A stretch of DNA of 20,043 nucleotides from a virus. A program made the translations under genes and the position numbers. Of this stretch, positions 1-20,043 are shown piece by piece (position 1 is the stretch's first letter; each line of letters opens with the position of its first letter). The notes below the pieces were generated by a model. The model saw nothing but the letters and a program-made list of their open reading frames with translations. It made no database searches and had not been told where the DNA came from. Where the stretch lies: IMG/VR virus record IMGVR_UViG_3300011115_000428, positions 1 to 20,043 of that record; one strand, written 5' to 3'.

Positions 1-1177
1 AAACATCTCGTCCTTCTTTATACCATTGCACAATATCATCTTGTCCACTCAACCAAACTAATACACGCGCTTCAATCTGTGATGAGTCACAGTTAATCAC
101 TTGGTGTCCTTCAGGAGCTACGACTGCATTCTTGAGTGCTTTCTTTTTCTTATCTCTGGATGGTAAGTTCTGGAAGTTAACCTTATCTGATCCCGCCCAA
201 CGTCCTGTATGAGCGCCATAATATTTAAGGGGGATAGGTAGTTTACCTTTATTACGTCCACCAATACCAATAAACCTTTCAATACGTGCCTCTTCCATGG
301 TTGATTTAGTACCCAACCGAACGCGACATAGTTCTTGAATAAATAAATCTTCGTGTTCAGTTAGTTCAATAAAGCCGTTGTCGTTTTTAGCTAAGGCAAA
401 CGTAGGGTTACCTGTCGCAGGACTTGTCTTCATTGGTACTTCTACACCTAACTCAGATAAGACTTCTGCAAATTGTTTATTAGATGCAAGCTTAGCCCTA
501 ACACATTCTTCTGAATCACATTCTAATCGCTTCATTAGGCCTTGTAACATTAAAGCTTTCTCGTCTTTAATTTCGTCTAGTCTAGCTTGTAGTAACGCAT
601 CATCGACCTCTAAGACAGGTTCGGTATACATGCGTAGCGTCATATCAATTAGTTTGATTTCATTCTCAGGATAATCTTGTGCGAGGATTTGGAATAGTTT
701 GTAGGTAAGTTCAACGTCGTTAATACAATAATTTCCATACTGTAATAACTCGTCTTCACTAAAATCTTCTAAGCGTTTGCCTTTAGCTTGAACTACTTCT
801 GTTCCTTTAGCGCCTAATTCATATCGTTCGACTAAGGATGCAAGACTTCCACCAGCATCGATTCCGTGTATTGCCCTAGCCATGCTGAGTGTATCGAGGT
901 AGAGATGTGGGATGATATTAAAACGGAAAGACAATATACCACCATCAAACTGAGTATTATGACAAAGAAGCGCGGAGTCCTTCCAATCAATCTTTTCAAG
1001 TTCATTATTGATCTCTTGATGTGTGCCTGTAACCCACTTTGTAACACCACTATCAATCTTAATACCAACACCGATGACTTGGAATCTTTCATCTTTAATA
1101 TATTCCTCCGTTGTAATTCCGGATAAACTAAAACCTACGTCGTAGTAGGTCTCAAAATCTAATGTAACTAGTTGCAT
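1..1177 (-). CDS. Family A DNA polymerase with 3'-5' exonuclease domain (partial)
   Basis: Replicative phage DNA polymerase of the Pol I (family A) type; the first 392 residues are in the window and the C-terminal palm/fingers run off the left edge. The DEDDy proofreading exonuclease is complete: Exo I LDFET (D7, E9), Exo II CHNTQFD (N74, D78), Exo III YCINDVELTY (Y150, D154). The polymerase part begins with HTGRWAG (about 323-329), NFQNLPS (334-340) and motif A DSSQIEARV with metal-binding D364. Motifs B and C lie outside, so the residue often linked to phage lifestyle cannot be read. There is no 5'-nuclease domain in front, as usual for phage enzymes. The ATG at 1177 lacks a strong Shine-Dalgarno and follows a long structured leader, which suggests translational control. 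It is last in the leftward operon within this window. Confidence 0.95.
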   Translation of the reverse strand, partial: MQLVTLDFETYYDVGFSLSGITTEEYIKDERFQVIGVGIKIDSGVTKWVTGTHQEINNELEKIDWKDSALLCHNTQFDGGILSFRFNIIPHLYLDTLSMARAIHGIDAGGSLASLVERYELGAKGTEVVQAKGKRLEDFSEDELLQYGNYCINDVELTYKLFQILAQDYPENEIKLIDMTLRMYTEPVLEVDDALLQARLDEIKDEKALMLQGLMKRLECDSEECVRAKLASNKQFAEVLSELGVEVPMKTSPATGNPTFALAKNDNGFIELTEHEDLFIQELCRVRLGTKSTMEEARIERFIGIGGRNKGKLPIPLKYYGAHTGRWAGSDKVNFQNLPSRDKKKKALKNAVVAPEGHQVINCDSSQIEARVLVWLSGQDDIVQWYKEGRDV

Positions 1178-3740: not shown

Positions 3741-3752
3741 ATTGACCTCCTA

Positions 3753-3765
3753 GGAACAGGTATCA
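3753..3765 (-). repeat. Lone copy of the 13-base half of the bipartite repeat
   Basis: TGATACCTGTTCC on the minus strand, identical to the second half of the 32-nt repeats at 9055, 9934 and 11046 but in the opposite orientation. It lies in the 32-nt gap between the DUF3310 and SleB genes, just before the AGGAGG of the latter. The 14-base first half is absent. Confidence 0.7.
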
Positions 3766-4536: not shown

Positions 4537-4746
4537 TTAGTGTGTTTTCTTACTTTTAATTATTCTGTCCCAATCATTACCCATGTTGTTTACAAAAGTT
4601 TGTCTATCTACTCCTGTAGTTTGAGCAATGGTAATCATCGCCATAGATAGTGTTGCCATAGCTTCTCCGAATGTAAATTTATCTACCATAAACTCTGTCA
4701 CAAGGTCTACTGATTTATCTTGTATTTTCTTTCCTACATTGTCCAT
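4537..4746 (-). CDS. Small helical protein of unknown function
   Basis: 69 residues, mostly helical: KIQDKSVDLVTEFMVDKFTFGEAMATLSMAMITIAQTTG then a DWDRIIKSK tail. Has the AAGGAGAAACAAG leader shared with the 4525 gene. The preceding 52-codon gene runs 32 nt into it. Confidence 0.75.
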   Translation of the reverse strand: MDNVGKKIQDKSVDLVTEFMVDKFTFGEAMATLSMAMITIAQTTGVDRQTFVNNMGNDWDRIIKSKKTH

Positions 4747-4873
4747 CTTGTTTCTCCTTTTTAAATTTTTCTAAGTTTGTTGTTATCTTTTGTGCGTATG
4801 CTATCGCGTCTTCTAATGCACTATCTTCGAAGTAGCATTGTTCATCTATAACATCATTGAGTGTTCTATCCAT
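4715..4873 (-). CDS. 52-residue acidic small protein
   Basis: MDRTLNDVIDEQCYFEDSALEDAIAYAQK then a lysine-rich end. The ATG at 4873 forms TAATG with the stop of the upstream gene, and the ORF fills a 126-nt gap in an otherwise packed operon; both support it. Its last 10 codons overlap the ribosome site and start of the downstream gene. Function unknown. Confidence 0.65.
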   Translation of the reverse strand: MDRTLNDVIDEQCYFEDSALEDAIAYAQKITTNLEKFKKEKQDGQCRKENTR

Positions 4874-5154
4874 TAGTCTTCACACCTTCCACCAACACAT
4901 GCTCGGCCAATGATCTCGTCTTCTAAGTCATTGTATGCGTCAGCTTGAACAAGATGTTCTGCGTGTTTCTTTTGTCTATCGTATAGACTATGGGTTGATT
5001 CTAGTACCGAACACTTGACAACAAGACCCTTCTCACGCATTGGCTCGGCGATAATGGTCGCGATGTGATCGCTTGGTTCTACACCCCATGTCCCTACTTG
5101 TTTTAAATATGTATCGTCCATGGATACTTCTACTACTACGCTAAACTTGGTCAT
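4873..5154 (-). CDS. Small protein of unknown function
   Basis: 93 residues, MTKFSVVVEVSMDDTYLKQVGTWG..., beta-rich first half, then helices with HSLYDRQKKHAEHLVQ and a GRACVGGRCED end whose two cysteines could pair or bind metal. GGGG lies 6 nt before the ATG. Confidence 0.75.
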   Translation of the reverse strand: MTKFSVVVEVSMDDTYLKQVGTWGVEPSDHIATIIAEPMREKGLVVKCSVLESTHSLYDRQKKHAEHLVQADAYNDLEDEIIGRACVGGRCED

Positions 5155-7820: not shown

Positions 7821-7979
7821 TTATAGTGCCTCCTTAATTTTGTCGTTTATTTTCACAATTTTTTTAAAAATGCGATTGATGTTTGCGCATTCGGGTAGTT
7901 CTTGAGGTATGTTGGTCTCACAATAGTCCACCAATGTCCAATATAAAAAGTCTAGTTCTTTTTCTGATAGTGTTTTCAT
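7821..7979 (-). CDS. 52-residue small helical protein
   Basis: MKTLSEKELDFLYWTLVDYC..., then PECANINRIFKKIVKINDKIKEAL. GGGAGG before the ATG, ATGA with the upstream gene, and the stop is one base before the next start. Helical, three-part pattern; function unknown. Confidence 0.72.
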   Translation of the reverse strand: MKTLSEKELDFLYWTLVDYCETNIPQELPECANINRIFKKIVKINDKIKEAL

Positions 7980-8143
7980 ACTGCCTCCCTAAATTCTTTC
8001 CATACACCATGTATTTGTAATTCAAAGATAACCTTGTTAAGTCTTCTTACCAATAACTTGTCAAAGTCGTTTATTGCCCTATCGTTTAACTCTACTGCGA
8101 TGTCTTCCAATTCAATGCCTAGTTCCATTAGTTTGTCGTTCAT
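7976..8143 (-). CDS. 55-residue small helical protein
   Basis: MNDKLMELGIELEDIAVELN... ending KEFREAV. The start at 8143 has GGAGG 6 nt upstream; the longer reading to 8209 would run 56 nt back into the upstream gene and is rejected. The EAV end is also the next ribosome site. Confidence 0.75.
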   Translation of the reverse strand: MNDKLMELGIELEDIAVELNDRAINDFDKLLVRRLNKVIFELQIHGVWKEFREAV

Positions 8144-8153
8144 ACTGCCTCCG

Positions 8154-8390
8154 TTATAGTGGGTAAAGTTTATAAGTGCCTGTGTATTCACATTGCCACT
8201 CGTATCCACCTCGTTTTGCTAGGTCGTAGAGTTCTTGCTTCAAATCCACAGGGTAATCAGTCATGATGTAGTCAAACGCGTCCATATTGCCTCTCTCGGT
8301 TGTCAAGGTCACCATGTTGTCATGCTCGTTGATATACACATTAAAACCTTGCTTTTCTAATTCTTTTACCATTGTGCTTACTCTTTTCAT
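8154..8390 (-). CDS. First gene of the leftward early operon; unknown function
   Basis: 78 residues. Basic start MKRVSTMVKELEKQGFNVYI, then EHDNMVTLTTERGNMDAFDY and a C-terminal CEYTGTYKLYPL. It resembles a compact alpha/beta domain. As the promoter-proximal gene of the long operon it would be made first after infection, which suits a host-takeover or regulatory role, but no motif shows that. GGAGG 7 nt upstream of the ATG. Confidence 0.75.
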   Translation of the reverse strand: MKRVSTMVKELEKQGFNVYINEHDNMVTLTTERGNMDAFDYIMTDYPVDLKQELYDLAKRGGYEWQCEYTGTYKLYPL

Positions 8391-8451
8391 ATTGCCTCCG
8401 TATAGGTTTTGTTGAGTTTTCTTGTATCGCTTTTTGTTTCGCGATGTGTTT

Positions 8452-8480
8452 ACTATCCTCCTCTTTGTTTCTTATGTCAA
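8452..8480 (-). promoter_or_regulatory. Sigma-70-like promoter of the long leftward operon
   Basis: Perfect -35 TTGACA (8480-8475), 17-nt spacer, -10 GATAGT (8457-8452, 4 of 6). The mRNA would begin near 8445 with a roughly 55-nt leader that holds a small hairpin (ATCGC/GCGAT, 10-nt loop). No other promoter this good precedes the operon. Confidence 0.6.
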
Positions 8481-8522
8481 GTATTATTTTACTAATTATA
8501 TTTTAGTAGGGTTTTCTTGGCG

Positions 8523-9001
8523 ACCTCGTAATTGATTCGTTTCGGTCTCGGTCTGTCGCCACTTTTTCTCGGTTTTGCCTATTTGTTGCCACTCATTTCT
8601 GTGTTTTGCGTGGTTTTACCTCGTAAGTGCTTGATTATATTCATGTTACCATTGTTGCCACTCGTTCGCTTTACAAATGGCTACGAAATACTTGGTTTTG
8701 AGAAAGGGGAAATGTTTGTAAGTGCTTGTTCTATATATATATAATATATTATATTATTATTATTAATGCTTATTTTTTGTGCATTGTTGCCAGTCGCCAC
8801 TACTTTTACATAGTGAATGGGTTGTAAAATGCACTTGCGCGGTTAGACGAATCTCTACCAAGTTTCCCAAGTTTTACCCCACATGTCCTGTTTTTTTAGT
8901 GGCAACATGGCAACAAATCAATATAATCAAGCACTTACGAAAAAATAGTGGCAACAAACCAAGTTTCACTTGGCAACAACCTAGTAAAATCAAGCACTTA
9001 C
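8523..9001. repeat. B-type repeats, GTAAGTGCTTGATT, mirrored
   Basis: Forward copies: TCGTAAGTGCTTGATTATAT at 8621-8640 and GTAAGTGCTTG at 8718-8728. Reverse copies: the exact complement of the first at 8921-8940 (with one more matching base, 21 bp in all), and AATCAAGCACTTAC at 8988-9001. At 8523-8536 lies CTCGTAATTGATT, the same sequence with the four bases GTGC missing. The B copies alternate with A copies in both arms. Confidence 0.85.
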
Positions 9002-9021
9002 CTTGTCACCTTGTGGCAACA
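8554..9021. repeat. A-type short repeats, TGTTGCCAC / GTGGCAACA, mirrored
   Basis: Forward (TTGTTGCCAC) at 8583-8592, 8652-8661 and 8784-8793 (last base differs), with degenerate copies TGTCGCCAC at 8554-8562 and GTCGCCAC at 8793-8800. Reverse (GTGGCAACA or TGGCAACAA) at 8899-8907, 8908-8916, 8948-8957, 8971-8979 and 9013-9021. All left copies face one way and all right copies the other. No other cluster of this sequence was noticed in the window. Confidence 0.85.
8732..8767. other. 36-nt pure A/T tract, possible unwinding element
   Basis: Every base from 8732 to 8767 is A or T, mostly TATATA and ATTATT steps. It lies within the repeat field, immediately next to a B repeat (8718-8728) and 17 nt from an A repeat (8784). 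Such a tract melts easily and would suit a DNA unwinding element. Confidence 0.6.
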
Positions 9022-9054
9022 TCTCGAATAACTCGGTTGGACTTGGTTGAAACC

Positions 9055-9086
9055 AAATGAGCGCATGGCAATGATACCTGTTCCCT
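9055..9086 (+). repeat. 32-nt bipartite repeat, copy 1
   Basis: Layout: 14 conserved bases AAATGAGCGCATGG, three variable bases (CAA), 15 conserved bases TGATACCTGTTCCCT. TTGAAACC stands before it as in copy 2. Lies between a terminator (9152-9173) and the repeat-rich origin candidate. Confidence 0.9.
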
Positions 9087-9151
9087 ACCCCTCGGCAGTC
9101 GATCCCCCCTAAAATGAATACCTGACTAATTTGGTCAACTAAGTAAAAAGC

Positions 9152-9173
9152 AAAAAGCCCTCCGAAGAGGGCT
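9152..9173 (-). terminator. Rho-independent terminator after the Gp88-like gene
   Basis: Minus strand: AGCCCTC, loop TTCG, GAGGGCT, then TTTT. A perfect 7-bp stem with the very stable UUCG loop and a U tract, 25 nt after the stop of the gene at 9198. Confidence 0.9.
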
Positions 9174-9197
9174 TGGCTAGGTGTTACCGGATAGAAC

Positions 9198-9857
9198 TTA
9201 GTGGGCGTGGTAACTAACATTAGTAACTGTATTATCCCAGCAAGCCCGACATGAACCACATTTACCGCCTTGACTAGGTGCTACACATTTAAACCCGTCT
9301 AACTCGGTTTTATCGTGAACCGTAGAGGTTAGGATGTTAGCATAGCCTTTTAATGATCTTGGTAGCTTGGCCGGTTGATCTTTAAACATGGCCGACATTC
9401 TTATAACTAGGTTAACGGGGATTGACTCGGTTTTTAAAAAGTCTTTTACAATGTCATACTCGCGTGTCGGTAGCCAAAACGTGGTGTTTACTAAGTGGCG
9501 CGCGATCGTTGCTATTTTTGCTAGGTGGTCTACACTTTGAAGGTCACCGCTATCATGCCAACGAAAAAAGGGCTTATTACCTATTAGCTTAATCATTGAC
9601 TCGACCCATAACGGGCTTTTAATAGATTCAAGGCGCTTATATTGCGCCGGTTGTATAGTCTTAGCATAGCGATGATAATTACCTTTTAACGCGTAGCAAT
9701 CTTCGCATACTGATCCTTTTACGTTAACTAGCTTTGATCCGGTAATGCATGCTTGCGCCGGTAATGAATAGCTATCACTTGGCATTTTTGTCGTTTTTGT
9801 AACTGAGCCCGCTAACTCTTGAGCTTGTTTTCTCGTGTAAATTTTGATTGTTTGCAT
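9198..9857 (-). CDS. Gp88-like cysteine-rich phage protein
   Basis: 219 residues, similar by pattern to the phage 'gene product 88' family (PF17338-like), function unknown. Landmarks: PAQACITGSKLVNVKGSVCEDCYALKGNY (about 33-61, cysteines 37, 51, 54), then FFRWHDSGDL (97-106), FWLPTREYD (127-135), VNLVIRMSA (148-156), and a C-terminal cluster at C191, C200, C203, C206. Seven cysteines with CxxC-type spacings suggest an iron-sulfur or zinc site. It has its own promoter and terminator, so it is a single-gene unit. AAGGATGC lies before the ATG. Confidence 0.82.
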   Translation of the reverse strand: MQTIKIYTRKQAQELAGSVTKTTKMPSDSYSLPAQACITGSKLVNVKGSVCEDCYALKGNYHRYAKTIQPAQYKRLESIKSPLWVESMIKLIGNKPFFRWHDSGDLQSVDHLAKIATIARHLVNTTFWLPTREYDIVKDFLKTESIPVNLVIRMSAMFKDQPAKLPRSLKGYANILTSTVHDKTELDGFKCVAPSQGGKCGSCRACWDNTVTNVSYHAH

Positions 9858-9886
9858 ATAGCATCCTTGTTGATAAATGAATTTTA

Positions 9887-9915
9887 ATCATACCTGAATT
9901 GTATGAGTTTGTAAA
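9887..9915 (-). promoter_or_regulatory. Strong sigma-70-like promoter of the Gp88-like gene
   Basis: TTTACA (9915-9910), 17-nt spacer, TATGAT (9892-9887): 5 of 6 in each box. Start expected near 9880, giving a leader of about 24 nt. Confidence 0.8.
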
Positions 9916-9933: not shown

Positions 9934-9965
9934 AAATGAGCGCATGGTAATGATACCTGTTCCCT
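9934..9965 (+). repeat. 32-nt bipartite repeat, copy 2
   Basis: Same 14 + 15 conserved bases as copy 1, variable centre TAA. Located 19 nt upstream of the -35 box of the Gp88-like promoter, just after the hairpin that ends the previous unit. Confidence 0.9.
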
Positions 9966-9989: not shown

Positions 9990-10122
9990 TTATTAAAGCA
10001 CCAGCTGGCATTCTTTTTAATTCCCAGCGTTTTTTGAATTGTTCGATTGCCTTCTTTTTACTTGAGGCATACTCATCTACGCAGTATGCAAAACCTGAAG
10101 CCCAAATATGATAGTGTTTCAT
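9979..10122 (-). CDS. 47-residue small protein after ardC
   Basis: MKHYHIWASGFAYCVDEYAS..., then KKKAIEQFKKRWELKRMP. A beta hairpin and a basic helix with an aromatic start. Its ATG overlaps the ardC stop by one base (TAATG) and uses the GGAGG inside the ardC end, so it is very likely translated with it. A small partner of the ArdC-like protein is possible. Confidence 0.72.
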   Translation of the reverse strand: MKHYHIWASGFAYCVDEYASSKKKAIEQFKKRWELKRMPAGALIREA

Positions 10123-10940
10123 TACACTGCCTCCTTCGTTGTAAAATCTAGAACCTTCTGAGCTAGCGCACCAGCTTTAAGAATATTCTTAGAATCGTTT
10201 TTTAATACTTCTAACCAGCTGGCAATGTAATTGGCATGTTGCAACTGGCCATCAATTTTTAAATGCGCGCATAACATGGCACTAGATAATTCTGCAACTA
10301 GCTCTTCAAAGGCATAAGCTTGGTTCCCGAATCGTTTACCGAATGATCTATTCAAGCGCGATTCATGGCCAGTCCAGTGTGCTAGCTCGTGCAAGGCCGT
10401 TGCATAATAATCGGCCGTAGATTTGAATTTGTCTTTTTCTGGTAATTGAATAGCATCAATTGAAGGTGCATAGAATGCGCGATTTCCACCAAATGAAATA
10501 CTAGCTTTTTGATTCTTAATGAATGCCTCGCATGATTCAATGGTTTCAATCTCGGTGCGCTCTTCATTCGATGCTGGTAATTCAAGGCCTTCAATTTGAT
10601 CTGCATTAAATACAGTATAAGTTTTTAACATCGGTATTTTTTTGATCTCATCTGAAGCGCTGTCTTTTACTTCTAAGGGACTGAAATATACAACCTGAAT
10701 GCCTTTCGAACCTTTTTTTACTTGAGCGCCAACGCTCTGCGCTTGCTTATATGTGCACCAGTAATTGGTTCCAGCTGGCATCATAGATAATTGAATGAAA
10801 TTAATGCCGTTGTAATAACGCTTAGCTATCGGGTTATATGGTGCATCGATGCCGTTGCTATGCCATGGTTTTACCCATGGTGCTGTGCCAGCTTCTAATT
10901 GTTTGATAATTGAATCGGTTATTGTTTGAGCTATACTCAT
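10122..10940 (-). CDS. ardC: ArdC-type antirestriction protein with zinc metallopeptidase domain
   Basis: 272 residues. The N-terminal half (about 1-125) is the ArdC N-domain (DUF1738 type), with TAPWVKPWHSNG and NPIAKRYYNGINFIQL and a single-stranded-DNA-binding role in known homologues. The C-terminal half is a zincin with ALHELAHWTGH (H184, E185, H188) and a downstream FEELVAELS segment (E212/E213 or E217 as third ligand). ArdC of plasmid pSa protects incoming DNA from host restriction. Here it is the second of a pair of defence-escape-type units between origin and head genes. It has its own promoter. Ends KEAV, doubling as the ribosome site for the 47-aa gene. Confidence 0.9.
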   Translation of the reverse strand: MSIAQTITDSIIKQLEAGTAPWVKPWHSNGIDAPYNPIAKRYYNGINFIQLSMMPAGTNYWCTYKQAQSVGAQVKKGSKGIQVVYFSPLEVKDSASDEIKKIPMLKTYTVFNADQIEGLELPASNEERTEIETIESCEAFIKNQKASISFGGNRAFYAPSIDAIQLPEKDKFKSTADYYATALHELAHWTGHESRLNRSFGKRFGNQAYAFEELVAELSSAMLCAHLKIDGQLQHANYIASWLEVLKNDSKNILKAGALAQKVLDFTTKEAV

Positions 10941-11045: not shown

Positions 11046-11077
11046 AAATGAGCGCATGGCCTTGATACCTGTTCCCT
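11046..11077 (+). repeat. 32-nt bipartite repeat, copy 3
   Basis: Same conserved 14 + 15 bases, variable centre CCT. Lies 35 nt upstream of the ardC -35 box and 6 nt beyond the T tract of the preceding terminator. Confidence 0.9.
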
Positions 11078-13394: not shown

Positions 13395-14904
13395 AGATAT
13401 AGAGGAGTTACAAAAGCTTTTTCAAGTAGCAGACCCAAAAGAAAAAGTTAAACTCCAAAGCCTTCTTAAAGCTTATAAAGTTAAGGCTGTTGAGAAGTCA
13501 GGCAAAGAAACATTTTTAGATTTTATACAACACGTGTACCCAGGGTACATGATAGGAGCGCATCATAGACACTTGGCACAAATATTTGAAGACATTGCTA
13601 ACGGAAAAAAGAAACGCGTTATTGTCAATATTGCACCAAGACATGGGAAATCTGAGCTTATCTCTTACTTGGCACCAGCGTGGTTTCTGGGTAAGTACCC
13701 ACATAAAAAAGTCATTATGGCATCTCACACAGCTGATCTTGCAGTTAATTTTGGTCGTCGTGTACGTAATCTTGTGGGTAGTGATGCGTATAAAGACATA
13801 TTTCCGCAAGTAGAGTTACAAGCTGACTCGAAGAGTGCATCACGTTGGGGTACTAATTTTAATGGTGAGTACTTTGCTATTGGTGTAGGTGGTGCCCTAG
13901 CAGGACGTGGTGCTGACTTATTTATTATTGATGACCCGCATTCAGAACAAGATGCTAAGTTAGGTAGGTCAGACGTCTTTTTACCAGCATGGGAATGGTT
14001 TCAATCAGGTCCTATACAACGTCTTATGCCAGGTGGATCTATCATCGTAGTGATGACTAGGTGGTCTAAGTTAGACTTAACCGGACAGATCGTTAACCAG
14101 ATGATTAAACAAGAAGGCGTAGATGAGTGGGAAGTTGTTGAGTTTCCTGCTATTATAGAAGATAAAGATGGGCATGAGAAAAGTCTTTGGCCTGAATTTT
14201 GGCCACTTGAAGAATTACTGGCAAAGAAGGCAGCGCTAGATGTACGGTACTGGAATGCTCAATACTTGCAAAACCCTGTGTCAGAAGAGGGTGCCTTAAT
14301 TAAAAGAGAGTGGTGGAAGATATGGGAGAAAGAAGATCCGCCAAACTGTGAATTCACTATTATGTCATTAGACGCGGCCCAAGAAACAAATAACCGAGCA
14401 GACTATAATTCTCTTACAACATGGGGCGTCTTTTTTAACGAAGAGACCAATAATTATAATATAATACTACTAAATGCTATTAAGGAAAGACTAGAGTTCC
14501 CTGAGTTAAAAGAATTAGTATTACGTGAGTATAAGGAATGGGAACCCGACGCACTCATAGTAGAAAAGAAATCTAACGGTGCAGCCCTCTATCAGGAGAT
14601 GAGAAGGATGGGTGTTCCGCTAGGGGAATTTACGCCGGGCAAAGGGCAAGATAAAATATCCAGAGTCAACTCGGTGGCAGATCTCTTTAGATCTGGTATA
14701 GTATGGGCTCCAGATAAACGTTGGGCACACGAAGTAATTGAAGAATGTAATGACTTTCCAAGCGGTTCGCACGATGACCAAGTGGACTCAACCACTATGG
14801 CGTTAATGCGCTTTAGGCAAGGTGGGTTTATAAGATTACCTAATGATGAGCCTGAAGATATACCAGGGTTTAGAAGTTCTAGAAATAAGTTGTATTTAGT
14901 TTAA
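13369..14904 (+). CDS. terL: Large terminase subunit
   Basis: 511 residues, the packaging motor ATPase and nuclease. ATPase: Walker A APRHGKSE at 89-96, Walker B LFIIDDP at 184-190 (D188, D189), and coupling motif VVMTRW at 227-232. RNase-H-like nuclease: MSLDAAQETNNRADYNSLTTW from 332 (D335), LIVEKKSNG around 397-404 (E399), and GSHDDQVDST at 466-475 (D469, D470, D473). The order and spacing match the headful type of TerL. Length is typical. The ATG at 13369 is embedded in the end of the small-subunit gene with only a weak AGAAG in front, so translation is probably coupled. Confidence 0.96.
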   Translation: MTQQKLTTKDIEELQKLFQVADPKEKVKLQSLLKAYKVKAVEKSGKETFLDFIQHVYPGYMIGAHHRHLAQIFEDIANGKKKRVIVNIAPRHGKSELISYLAPAWFLGKYPHKKVIMASHTADLAVNFGRRVRNLVGSDAYKDIFPQVELQADSKSASRWGTNFNGEYFAIGVGGALAGRGADLFIIDDPHSEQDAKLGRSDVFLPAWEWFQSGPIQRLMPGGSIIVVMTRWSKLDLTGQIVNQMIKQEGVDEWEVVEFPAIIEDKDGHEKSLWPEFWPLEELLAKKAALDVRYWNAQYLQNPVSEEGALIKREWWKIWEKEDPPNCEFTIMSLDAAQETNNRADYNSLTTWGVFFNEETNNYNIILLNAIKERLEFPELKELVLREYKEWEPDALIVEKKSNGAALYQEMRRMGVPLGEFTPGKGQDKISRVNSVADLFRSGIVWAPDKRWAHEVIEECNDFPSGSHDDQVDSTTMALMRFRQGGFIRLPNDEPEDIPGFRSSRNKLYLV

Positions 14905-14914
14905 GGATAAACAT

Positions 14915-17446
14915 ATGGCAATAGATAAAAGTGTATACCAAGCCCCAACGGGAATAGATCAAGATCCGCAAAATCCAGAAACGTCTGCGTTAAGTATTGA
15001 GATTGAGAATCCAGATTCAGTAACTCTAGATGATGGCAGCATGGAGATTACTATTACTCCAGGTAAAGAATCTGATGATGAGTTTAATGATAACTTAGCA
15101 GAAGAGATGGATGAGGGTCAGTTGACTGAGTTGTCAGGTGATTTGATTGGTGAATTTGATGCAGATATTAATTCAAGAAAAGATTGGCTTACTACATATG
15201 TAGATGGTCTAGAACTATTAGGTCTTAAAGTAGAAGATAGAACAGAACCATGGCCTGGTGCATGTAATGTGTATCATCCACTCATGACTGAAGCGCTAGT
15301 GAAGTTCCAAGCAGAAACGATGATGGAGACTTTCCCAGCAGCAGGTCCTGTCAAAACAATTATTGTAGGTAAACAAACTCCAGAAAAAGATGCCGCAGCA
15401 TTAAGAGTTAAAGATGATATGAACTATCAGCTTACTGACTTCATGCCTGAGTATCGTCCTGAACATGAAAGAATGTTATGGGGACTAGGGCTTGCTGGTA
15501 ACGCGTTCAAGAAAGTATATTACGATCCGAACTTAGCACGTCAAGTGTCTATGTATGTTCCAGCAGAAGATATTGTTGTACCTTATGGTGCGTCATCATT
15601 AGAAATGGCAGAACGTGTTACTCACGTGATGCGTAAGACTAAGAATGAGTTACGTAAACTTATGGTGGCTGGCTTCTACAAAGATGTAGATTTAGGTGAA
15701 CCGTTCCTAGACGTTGATGAAGCAGAGAAAAAGATTGCTGAGAAGATGGGCTTCAACCCAACGGAAGATGATCGCTATAAAATTTTAGAAATGCATGTTA
15801 ACTTGGATCTTGAAAATGGAGATTCAGAAGATGGCATAGCATTACCATATATTGTAACAATTGAAAAAGGTACAGGTACTATCTTAGCAATAAGACGTAA
15901 CTGGAATCCTGATGATAAGTTAAAAGCTAAACGTCAACACTTTGTTCATTATGGTTACATTCCAGGCTTTGGCTTTTATTGCTTTGGCTTAATCCATTTG
16001 ATAGGTGCCTTCGCAAAATCAGGTACTATGATCTTACGTCAACTTGTAGACGCAGGTACTCTATCGAACTTACCAGGTGGTATGAAGTCAAGAGGACTTC
16101 GTATTAAAGGAGATGATACTCCTATTGCTCCAGGTGAATGGAGAGATGTTGATGTACCATCAGGTGCTATCCGCGATAACATTTTACCGTTGCCTTATAA
16201 AGAACCTTCACAAGTTCTTAACCAGTTAATGAATCAAATCATTGAAGAAGGTAGAAGATTTGCTTCTGCTGCAGACATGAAAGTATCTGATATGAGTGCA
16301 AACTCACCAGTAGGTACTACATTAGCAATTCTAGAAAGAACTCTCAAAGTAATGTCAGCTGTTCAAGCGCGTATCTACTATGCGATGAAACAAGAGTTTA
16401 AATTACTTAAAGGCATTATTAGAGACTACACTCCTAAAGAATATTCATATGAACCAGATATTGGTGACAGACGTGCTAAACAATCAGATTATGATAACTG
16501 TGATGTTATACCTGTATCAGATCCTAACGCAGCTACCATGTCACAAAAAGTTGTGCAGTATCAAGCAGTTATGCAAATGGCACAACAATATCCACAAATA
16601 TACGACTTACCAGAATTAAATCGTCAAATGCTTGAAGTATTAGGCATTAAGAATATTGGTAAGTTAGTTCCAAGCGCAGAAGATAAGAAACCTAAAGATC
16701 CTGTGTCAGAAAATATGGATATCATTAATATGAAACCGGTTAAAGCATTTATCTATCAAGATCATCAAGCTCATTTATCAGTTCACATGGCAGCTATGCA
16801 AGACCCAAAACTTATGCAAATGATGAGTCAAAACCCGATGGCACAAGCAATTCAAGCCGCGGCTATGGCGCATATTAACGAACACATTGCATTTGAGTAT
16901 AGAAAACAACTAGAAGAACAATTAGGCGTACCATTACCTAATCCAGATGAAACATTACCTGAAGATGTTGAAGTTGAGTTATCTAGATTAACTGCAGCGG
17001 CAGCGCAAAAACTATTAGCTAAAGATCAAGGCGAAGCTCAGCAACAACAAGCTCAGCAACAGCAACAAGATCCGTTAGTTCAAATGCAACAACAAGAACT
17101 ACAACTTAAAGCACAAGACTTGCAAATTAAAGCTCAAAAAACTCAAGCAGATATTCAACTTGAACAACAAAAACTTGAATTTGAAAAAGAAAAACTTGCA
17201 TCTCATGAAAGAATTGAAGGTGTACGTATAGGGTCTAAAACAACAATAGATAAAAATAGACTTGAAGGAGACCAGATGTTACAAGGCGCTCGTTTAGGTA
17301 TGGACGCAGAGTTTAAAAAACAAGAGCATAGTCATAAACAAAAAGAAACAGCTATTAATGCAATTGACCGCTTAATGGAACATAAGCATAAAGTAGAAGA
17401 TCGGAATTTAATAAAGGAACAAAATAAACAACAACCCAAGGAGTAA
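14915..17446 (+). CDS. P22-type portal protein with long Q-rich C-terminal tail
   Basis: 843 residues, longer than most portals (P22 gp1 is 725). The core is recognisable: DINSRKDWLTTYVDGLELLG and EPWPGACNVYHPLMTEAL (about 83-132), then AGNAFKKVYYDPN, and the FHYGYIPGFG-like segment near 345-355. This fits the P22-like portal group. From about residue 700 the chain becomes a Q/K/E-rich helix (QQQQQ runs, then repeats like LKAQDLQIKAQKTQADIQLEQ), comparable to the barrel helix seen in P22. The protein forms the dodecameric ring at one head vertex where DNA enters. AAGGAT precedes the ATG, 10 nt after terL. Confidence 0.9.
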   Translation: MAIDKSVYQAPTGIDQDPQNPETSALSIEIENPDSVTLDDGSMEITITPGKESDDEFNDNLAEEMDEGQLTELSGDLIGEFDADINSRKDWLTTYVDGLELLGLKVEDRTEPWPGACNVYHPLMTEALVKFQAETMMETFPAAGPVKTIIVGKQTPEKDAAALRVKDDMNYQLTDFMPEYRPEHERMLWGLGLAGNAFKKVYYDPNLARQVSMYVPAEDIVVPYGASSLEMAERVTHVMRKTKNELRKLMVAGFYKDVDLGEPFLDVDEAEKKIAEKMGFNPTEDDRYKILEMHVNLDLENGDSEDGIALPYIVTIEKGTGTILAIRRNWNPDDKLKAKRQHFVHYGYIPGFGFYCFGLIHLIGAFAKSGTMILRQLVDAGTLSNLPGGMKSRGLRIKGDDTPIAPGEWRDVDVPSGAIRDNILPLPYKEPSQVLNQLMNQIIEEGRRFASAADMKVSDMSANSPVGTTLAILERTLKVMSAVQARIYYAMKQEFKLLKGIIRDYTPKEYSYEPDIGDRRAKQSDYDNCDVIPVSDPNAATMSQKVVQYQAVMQMAQQYPQIYDLPELNRQMLEVLGIKNIGKLVPSAEDKKPKDPVSENMDIINMKPVKAFIYQDHQAHLSVHMAAMQDPKLMQMMSQNPMAQAIQAAAMAHINEHIAFEYRKQLEEQLGVPLPNPDETLPEDVEVELSRLTAAAAQKLLAKDQGEAQQQQAQQQQQDPLVQMQQQELQLKAQDLQIKAQKTQADIQLEQQKLEFEKEKLASHERIEGVRIGSKTTIDKNRLEGDQMLQGARLGMDAEFKKQEHSHKQKETAINAIDRLMEHKHKVEDRNLIKEQNKQQPKE

Positions 17447-17450
17447 CTAA

Positions 17451-17645
17451 ATGGACCAAACGCTAGAGCTATTATTGTCTCGAATAGATGATCAGCGCAA
17501 AACAGTATTAATGAATTTGGGAGACGGGGCAGCAAAAGATTTTGCTTCGTACCAAAATATGATCGGATATATACGAGGTTTATCCGTAGCAGAAGGTATT
17601 ATTAAAGACCTCGCACAAAGAATGGAGACATATGACGATGAGTGA
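17451..17645 (+). CDS. 64-residue conserved head-operon protein
   Basis: MDQTLELLLSRIDDQRKTVL... then YQNMIGYIRGLSVAEGIIKDL: two amphipathic helices. AAGGAG 7 nt upstream; 4 nt after the portal stop, and 8-nt overlap with the next gene. A short partner of the portal or scaffold is likely, but no function is shown. Confidence 0.78.
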   Translation: MDQTLELLLSRIDDQRKTVLMNLGDGAAKDFASYQNMIGYIRGLSVAEGIIKDLAQRMETYDDE

Positions 17646-18094: not shown

Positions 18095-19129
18095 ATGGCT
18101 GAGCAAAAAGAAACTGAGATAGTATTTGAATATCCAGATGATATGGATATACCAGGTACGACGGGTAATAAAATACCTGAGGAAAAAGAAGTTTTCATTC
18201 AAACTGAAAAAAACGAAGTAAAAGTAGAAACAAAAGCAGATGACATTGATCTTGAAATTACAGATGATGACATTCCCGCTGCTGATAGAGGTAAAGAACC
18301 CTTACCTAAAGAAAAAGTAGACGAATTAGAAAATGACACTTTAGAAGATTATTCTGAACGAGTCAAACAACGTATGGCTCAACTTAAAAAAGTTTGGCAT
18401 GACGAAAGACGTGCTAAAGAAGCTGCTGACCGAGAACGTGAAGAAGCAGTTAAGTATGCAAAACAAATTGCTGATGAGAATAAAAAGTTAAAAACAACTT
18501 TAAGTTCTGGTGAAGAAGAATATATTAAAGCTGTAAGTAGTTCATTAGAACATCAGTTATCTATCGCTAAACGAGACTATCGTGAAGCTTATGATTCTGG
18601 TGATACTGATAAAATTATTGAAGCTCAATCTAAGATGAATGATACACAAATGCGTTTATCTCAAATGCAACAATATAAGCCTCAGTATAAAAACACTTTA
18701 CAAGAACCTGAAAAAGATGTATATATACAAGAAACTAGACCTCAAGTACCAAAGCCAGATTTAAGAGCTTTAAATTGGCAAGAAAAGAATGACTGGTTTG
18801 GTAAAGACGAAGAAATGACTAGTCTTGCTTTAGGTGTACATGAAAAATTAGTTAGAAGCGGGATTGATCCTTCTTCTGACGAATATTACCGTCGTATAGA
18901 TAGTACGATGCAGAAACGATTCCCAGAAAACTTTGGGGATGCAACGCTAGACGAGGACCAACCCGCCCAGCGCACTAAACCTTCGAATGTAGTTGCTCCG
19001 GCAACGCGTAGCACCGCGCCTAAAAAAGTGCGTCTGACGAAGACACAAGTAGCGTTAGCTAAGAAATTCGGGCTAACACCGGAACAATATGCAAGAGAAA
19101 CTTTAAAATTGGAGAACGCAAATGGATAA
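18095..19129 (+). CDS. Probable scaffolding protein
   Basis: 344 residues. Acidic, unstructured start (about 1-95), a long charged coiled coil (YSERVKQRMAQLKKVWHDER onward, 96-200), a Pro/Thr-rich linker (250-305), and a basic C-terminal helix (KKVRLTKTQVALAKKFGLTPEQYARET). Scaffold proteins use such a basic C-terminal helix to hold the capsid protein during procapsid assembly. It stands two genes before the capsid gene. No protease motif seen. AAGGAG precedes the ATG. Confidence 0.72.
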   Translation: MAEQKETEIVFEYPDDMDIPGTTGNKIPEEKEVFIQTEKNEVKVETKADDIDLEITDDDIPAADRGKEPLPKEKVDELENDTLEDYSERVKQRMAQLKKVWHDERRAKEAADREREEAVKYAKQIADENKKLKTTLSSGEEEYIKAVSSSLEHQLSIAKRDYREAYDSGDTDKIIEAQSKMNDTQMRLSQMQQYKPQYKNTLQEPEKDVYIQETRPQVPKPDLRALNWQEKNDWFGKDEEMTSLALGVHEKLVRSGIDPSSDEYYRRIDSTMQKRFPENFGDATLDEDQPAQRTKPSNVVAPATRSTAPKKVRLTKTQVALAKKFGLTPEQYARETLKLENANG

Positions 19130-19571
19130 TAATAGAATAGATCGTGAACAAGATACAAGAGATGATTTTCAAAGACCTGATAGCTGGAAACCTGCATCAT
19201 TACTACCTGAGTTTAAAAAGGTACCTGGTTGGGCTTATCGATGGATTCGTACAAGTGTCATGAACGAGGCTGATAATCTAAATGTATCCTCCAAAATGCG
19301 TGAAGGATGGGAACCCGTTAAATTAGCGGACCACCCTGAAATGAAATTAATGGTCGACCAAAACTCTCGCTTCAAAGAAGGCGTTGAAATTGGTGGATTA
19401 TTACTTTGCAAAATCCCAGAAGAGTTTGTTGCACAACGAAAGGCTCATTATGCTCAACAAGCAAAACAACAAGCCGAAGCAGTTGATAACAGCTTTATGA
19501 AACAGAATGATCCTAGAATGCCTCTCTTTGCAGAGTCAAAATCTACGACTTCATTCGGTAAAGGTAAATAA
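19122..19571 (+). CDS. Conserved head-assembly protein of unknown function
   Basis: 149 residues: a basic, aromatic WKPASLLPEFKKVPGWAYRWIR (23-44), then MREGWEPVKLADHPE (59-73), EIGGLLLCKIPEEFVAQRKAHY (89-110), and a flexible end RMPLFAESKSTTSFGKGK. I know this pattern from environmental tailed phages, always next to the capsid gene, with no proven function. It overlaps the scaffold gene by 8 nt; GGAG upstream. Confidence 0.75.
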   Translation: MDNNRIDREQDTRDDFQRPDSWKPASLLPEFKKVPGWAYRWIRTSVMNEADNLNVSSKMREGWEPVKLADHPEMKLMVDQNSRFKEGVEIGGLLLCKIPEEFVAQRKAHYAQQAKQQAEAVDNSFMKQNDPRMPLFAESKSTTSFGKGK

Positions 19572-19592
19572 TATAAATATAAGGAGATTACT

Positions 19593-20043
19593 ATGTCATA
19601 TCCAACAGTAACCGCTCCATACGGATTAAGACCTATTAATCGTTTTGACGGCATGCCATATGCTGGTGCTACTAATCAGTACCCAGTAACAAGTGGTCAA
19701 GCAGTTTATAACGGTCAAGTGGTTGCATTCGTAAATGGCGGTACAGTATCACCAGTAGCATCCCACACAGCTAGTACTTACGCTGTAGGTGTTGTAATGG
19801 GTGTTCAATACACAAACTCAACAGGTCAAACAGTGCAAGCTCAATATGCACCTTCATCAGGCGTATCAGATGTTATCGCTTATGTTGTAAATGATCCTGC
19901 TGCAGAGTTTAAAGTCGCAGTTACAGGTAATAATCAAACGATTACTCCAGTAGCAGGCACTGTTTTAAACACAAACGTTTTATTAGTAGTAGGTACAGGC
20001 GACACAGCAACAGGTAATATCAATTCATCTATTGATGGTACTT
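19593..20043 (+). CDS. Probable major capsid protein (partial)
   Basis: First 150 residues visible; the gene runs off the right edge. Starts MSYPTVTAPYGLRPINRFDG, then a beta-rich GATNQYPVTSGQAVYNGQVV region with many G, T, N, V. The opening 'APYGLRPIN' resembles probable capsid proteins of environmental phages with this gene order. AAGGAG (19581-19586) lies 6 nt before the ATG, a very strong start. A minor capsid or decoration protein is the main alternative. Confidence 0.62.
   Translation, partial: MSYPTVTAPYGLRPINRFDGMPYAGATNQYPVTSGQAVYNGQVVAFVNGGTVSPVASHTASTYAVGVVMGVQYTNSTGQTVQAQYAPSSGVSDVIAYVVNDPAAEFKVAVTGNNQTITPVAGTVLNTNVLLVVGTGDTATGNINSSIDGT

Follow-up and report, generated by a model that had tools for sequence, protein, structure and literature searches.

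The origins of phage-inducible chromosomal islands (PICIs) are described as always carrying two iteron sets that flank an AT-rich region (PMC6092414). Rep helicases of the Staphylococcus aureus pathogenicity islands (SaPIs) use their C-terminal domain to read iterons, apparently binding as a pair of hexamers, and the C-terminal domain of Cch2, a helicase of the staphylococcal cassette chromosome SCCmec, was shown to bind short repeats (PMC7581432). Passages of PMC5862659 on fusions of archaeo-eukaryotic primases (AEPs) with DUF927 and a winged helix propose that the winged helix recognises origins. Here, a field of mirrored repeats at positions 8554-9021 of the IMG/VR virus record IMGVR_UViG_3300011115_000428 (20,043 nt; the whole stretch is called the window) is compared with these designs. 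Judged from sequence analysis, the field is very probably where this uncultured phage starts DNA replication. We put at about 0.72 the probability of the fuller reading, namely that it is a phage replication origin whose pairs of A repeats would be bound by a phage AEP primase-DUF927 initiator, which would melt an A/T tract and load as the fork helicase and primase.

Nine A repeats (TGTTGCCAC, at most one mismatch) lie in the field, four on the plus and five on the minus strand, and the whole window contains 12 against 3.6 expected; the B box (GTAAGTGCTTGATT) is present in three exact copies and one with two mismatches (Table 1). Some degenerate A copies are also present. The A repeats reverse their orientation between 8793 and 8899 and the B boxes do likewise, so that the two mirrored families of the original prediction were recovered by site scans, together with its perfect 21-bp inverted repeat, which is the longest exact one. 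In the 807-nt intergenic stretch exact TGTTGCCA was observed eight times and the exact B core GTAAGTGCTTG four times; over 1000 dinucleotide shuffles of that stretch the former occurred 0.04 times on average (maximum 2) and the latter never. The predicted 36-nt A/T-only tract is likewise there, the runner-up in the window being 18 nt long, but the field is not centred around it: the tract adjoins the mirror centre, between a B box and a 17-bp conserved core that is followed by tandem A sites. The field has repeated initiator-type sites beside a unique AT-rich tract, the proposed unwinding element, as initiator-iteron origins in general do. No exact DnaA box (TTWTNCACA) was found in the window; the single one-mismatch site in the field (8804) is no excess over chance.

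Relatives were collected from IMG/VR with the GP88-family gene that flanks the field (23 loci) and with the candidate replication helicase (80 loci). They include G001, a 41-kb contig of a near relative, G002, a 65-kb record with a 52-bp terminal repeat that was taken as closed, and the closed genome G018. Homologous fields were found in more than 20 related phage contigs, among them many long contigs from the helicase search, with a near-constant layout, in which tandem A pairs face inward at a distance of about 110-120 bp and are followed by an A/T-rich tract with many TAA and by a B box. Close relatives carry both kinds of repeat downstream of GP88; other relatives retain the B box and the tract and have altered A repeats. 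Read in the orientation of the relatives, with position 420 assigned to the tract, the fields of the different A types have tandem A sites at about 258-280 (forward), 385-396 (reverse) and 524-536 (reverse). In more distant phages two inward-facing pairs of tandem A sites at the 110-120 bp spacing, an A/T-rich stretch and a B-like box are still present, although the uninterrupted A/T run is short in some. In G001 and G002 the A-type cluster is confined to the field, and there is a single A/T-only run of at least 30 nt per genome. Repeats that were absent or scattered in relatives would have spoken against an origin; they are neither, and the near-fixed geometry, the clustering at the field alone in G001 and G002 and a compatible GC skew support the origin proposed earlier. 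A nucleotide search of phage records returned no match, and in Pseudomonas phage Rollin (a 27% helicase relative) the 47 kb examined contained neither a comparable A/T tract nor a cluster of TGTT-type repeats. HTVC023P, one examined among the nearest cultured phages by terminase (43-50%), was set aside as a comparator, since it has a different replication module in which primase and helicase are separate. The relatives' fields also contain a third conserved element, TTNGTAAANTT, at a near-fixed position (about 502-521 on the same scale) where it separates the B box from the outer tandem A pair, and G037, G040 and G041 have several copies of it.

The A repeats are of different types by lineage: TGTTGCCA, TGTTCTC, TGTTCCTA, TGTTCCAA, TGTTCTAA, TGTTACA, GGTTCATG and AGTTCATG. 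Within a lineage the letters switch together at all copies, while the B box and the tract persist. At position 5 of the repeat, for example, G is found in 9-10 of 10 sites in G000 and G001, C in 10 of 10 in G002 and A in 10 of 10 in G018. All copies changing at once points to one protein that is required to recognise the A repeat, and concerted change with B and tract kept is the pattern to be expected of an initiator-bound origin. Repeats and bends are also known at packaging (pac or cos) and partition sites, and the terminase genes lie about 4 kb from the field. A role of this kind is nevertheless very improbable, since terminase stays about 84-89% identical while the A repeats change and did not figure among the protein windows found to follow A type most closely; a gene for partition was not noticed either.

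GC skew was compared at third codon positions of same-strand genes, because full-genome cumulative minima also fall at transcription divergence and were judged unsafe alone. In 12 of 13 genomes the skew is higher on the polymerase side of the field than on the terminase side, the values in the window being +0.12 and -0.046. Such a difference is as expected if forks leave the field in both directions; it is support and not proof, because the comparison draws on related genomes and on few terminase-side genes, and expression may add to the difference. Skew, taken as a whole, is compatible with an origin here. In the cumulative skew that the original prediction had named as a check, closed G018 has its detrended minimum at 46521, and the tract (46007-46048) is only about 0.5 kb away.

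Concerted change of operators is known among phage repressor immunity groups. The field could instead be an operator or enhancer region, in which a phage repressor or activator on the A and B sites controls the leftward early promoter at about 8452-8480. A promoter-like TTGACA site does adjoin the field, and the relatives encode a small helix-turn-helix (HTH) protein. However, the sites surround the A/T tract and not the promoter, no second A-type cluster is present in G001 or G002, and the skew changes at the field. Temperate functions were represented by a search for integrase (PF00589), which gave no match in seven relatives, two closed genomes included, and no search aimed at repressors was made. 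We regard regulation as an unlikely main role, and repressor sites keep the lower rank they had been given at the outset, with the integrase result and the skew on the side of an origin.

The relatives encode a protein of about 950 aa with a primase-like N terminus, a DUF927 helicase (1e-20) and a variable C terminus. This AEP primase-DUF927 helicase is likely the origin initiator. Its sequence matches in the PDB are SCCmec Cch and the SaPI helicase. The full-length model is of moderate quality (predicted local distance difference test, pLDDT, 75.7; predicted template modelling score, pTM, 0.42), and its best structural match in the PDB is the SaPIbov1 replication initiator 8tch (E 1.8e-12, template modelling score 0.60 on target). 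The model of the C-terminal 117 aa is better (pLDDT 88, pTM 0.81) and gives weak fold matches to DNA-binding winged-helix-type domains (TcpK-oriT, HSF) and to Cch. The gene is located at 14617-17502 in G001 and at 25.2-28.1 kb in G002, where the field occupies 7.75-8.52 kb. That no known initiator is visible in the window was borne out, the candidate having been met in longer relatives.

The PICI/SaPI origin is, by analogy, the closest known design. The likeness lies in the two iteron sets flanking an AT-rich region and in a self-loading initiator helicase of DUF927 type with a C-terminal origin-binding domain (PMC7581432), a SaPI-Rep-like helicase being encoded in the relatives by a gene outside the span of the 20-kb record. 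Here, however, the element is a free-standing tailed phage with terminase and portal and not a satellite, the field is about 17 kb from the candidate initiator gene whereas the SaPI origin is directly 3' of rep, the primase is fused to the helicase, and there are a second box family, a conserved core and A repeats that face inward in tandem pairs. Because the element, the initiator distance and the conserved second box differ, the field would work like a PICI origin without being one. SCCmec shares a related helicase (Cch, 5dgk), but its direct repeats are in the intergenic region after cch2, for which a mirrored field with a long A/T tract inside is not described. The PrimPol-PV1 supergroup primases (PrimQH, All3500) with DUF927 and winged helix show the same domain combination; whereas the relevant passages of PMC5862659 name no cognate phage origin, a candidate origin and its sequence changes are given here. 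Lambda-type and iteron-plasmid origins also place initiator repeats beside an easily melted tract. They differ in that the present repeats are mirrored and not one-way, that the window has no exact DnaA box and that no lambda O- or RepA-type initiator was recognised among the relatives' genes tested.

Co-variation of proteins with the A repeat was followed in 14 genomes, with 235 windows across 10 proteins. Of the 235, residues 907-952 of the primase-helicase follow the distance between A repeats most closely (partial r about 0.5, permutation p 0.002). In pairs with an identity of at least 0.55 over the rest of the protein, identity in the C-terminal domain drops by 0.06 when the A type is the same (n = 7) vs. 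0.26 when it differs (n = 28). The primase-helicase of G004 is nearer to that of G035 (0.86) than of G002 (0.80) over the rest of the protein, whereas its C-terminal domain is nearer to that of G002 (0.73), which has the same A type, than of G035 (0.56). As an indirect sign of binding to the repeats the co-variation is mixed, and the signal that the C-terminal winged-helix-like domain tracks the A-repeat type is no more than suggestive. A search for "specificity columns" on full proteins was uninformative.

Several observations weigh against an origin read by this domain. Windows of a neighbouring small protein (0.48) and of the HTH protein (0.42) correlate nearly as well, the correlation falls to 0.16 without the five distant TGTTCCAA genomes, and triple comparisons are 16 for and 17 against. 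G035 and G037, distant phages of the same A type, have dissimilar C-terminal domains (0.25 identity). The 20-kb record lacks the helicase gene of its own phage. Gene direction and expression both confound cumulative skew, the minimum of which in closed G002 (4795) lies 3.4 kb away from the field, at the transcription divergence.

The field may also be an origin whose A repeats are read by another protein, which recruits the primase-helicase as lambda O recruits DnaB. The candidates are the 102-aa HTH protein, whose gene directly precedes that of the helicase, a protein of about 140 aa encoded upstream, or an unrecognised one. Both named proteins track A type (partial r 0.44 and 0.43, respectively), and their genes share a cluster with the helicase. 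However, in most phages with differing A repeats the HTH recognition helix SRMSIHSWFRG shows little or no change, which fits the constant B box better, and the SaPI Rep homologues bind their own iterons (PMC7581432). We judge a separate reader improbable, though less so than a regulatory role.

The preferred reading, an origin bound by the primase-helicase itself, can be put as a series of steps. The C-terminal winged-helix-like domain would bind the tandem A pairs, and one protein reading all A repeats is proposed as the cause of their changing together in each lineage. The initiator would assemble as two rings facing each other, melt the TAA-rich tract between an A pair and a B box, and load itself as fork helicase and primase in both directions. 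The B boxes would be read by a second, conserved factor, possibly the small HTH protein or a host protein. The near-constant B box and the conserved recognition helix make the HTH protein a reasonable reader, and that it is the reader is our guess.

Table 1. Features of the repeat field and of its surroundings in the window.
Feature	Position	Strand	Remark
Promoter-like TTGACA-17-GATAGT	8452-8480	-	for leftward early genes, just outside field; consensus match only
A repeat TGTCGCCAC	8554-8562	+	1 mismatch
A repeat TGTTGCCAC	8584-8592	+	
Left arm of exact 21-bp inverted repeat	8621-8641	+	holds B box 8623-8636
B box GTAAGTGCTTGATT	8623-8636	+	exact
Degenerate A repeat TGTTACCA	8644-8651	+	first in tandem pair with 8653
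A repeat TGTTGCCAC	8653-8661	+	pair 8644/8653 matches the conserved outer pair (about 527/536, tract start 420, relatives' orientation)
Degenerate copy of third conserved element	8667-8677	+	TTNGTAAANTT on opposite strand; near-fixed position in relatives
B box	8718-8731	+	2 mismatches; abuts A/T tract
A/T-only tract, 36 nt, with TAA repeats	8732-8767		proposed unwinding element; longest A/T run in window
Conserved core TGCACAAAAAATAAGCA	8767-8783	-	between A/T tract and tandem A pair
A repeat beside core	8785-8793	+	tandem with degenerate AGTCGCCA 8792-8799
A repeat	8899-8907	-	first of inward-facing tandem pair
A repeat	8907-8915	-	second of inward-facing tandem pair
Right arm of exact 21-bp inverted repeat	8920-8940	-	
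B box	8925-8938	-	exact
A repeat	8948-8956	-	
A repeat	8970-8978	-	1 mismatch
B box	8988-9001	-	exact
A repeat	9013-9021	-	
Terminator-like hairpin	9155-9174	-	after GP88 gene; closes field on terminase side
GP88-family gene (PF17338)	9198-9857	-	flanks field; query for relatives
ArdC-N + zincin metallopeptidase gene	10122-10940		near field, beside GP88 gene

The field sits between leftward genes, which include a family-A DNA polymerase besides the GP88-family and ArdC-like genes of Table 1, and the rightward genes begin near terminase and portal. GP88 was not found in several field-bearing relatives, e.g., G018 and G033. Two mechanically called plus-strand open reading frames overlap the field; their direction opposes the operon and they were not treated as genes, no formal coding test having been applied. 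An Rfam search of 7900-9900 gave nothing. A 31-bp intergenic repeat, GGGAACAGGTATCANNNCCATGCGCTCATTT, stands on the minus strand at 9055-9085, 9934-9964 and 11046-11076, where chance would give none, with a half copy at about 3752-3764 (+); the 9055 copy is oriented into the field. Copies recur at corresponding places in relatives, one directly before a ribosome-binding site (G001 26552), and the repeat possibly serves as a phage promoter or in some other regulatory role. Three small proteins of G002 (4616-5140, 18541-19167 and 19160-19726) resemble, by eye, 2-oxoglutarate/Fe(II)-dioxygenase-type enzymes.

To our knowledge, few origins are known for uncultured phages. For the one proposed here there is a candidate initiator, and its recognition repeat has at least seven natural variants on a scaffold that otherwise hardly changes. 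More tentatively, and with the odds somewhat against it, a widespread environmental phage family may have a mirrored origin with two kinds of box that an AEP-DUF927 initiator fires; the A repeat and the C-terminal winged helix of the initiator would have co-changed many times to give origin incompatibility groups inside a single phage lineage, while a second, conserved factor would read the near-unchanging B box. The variant series would be ready-made for learning how DUF927 initiator helicases, common to SaPI and SCCmec, choose their origins and how this choice evolves.
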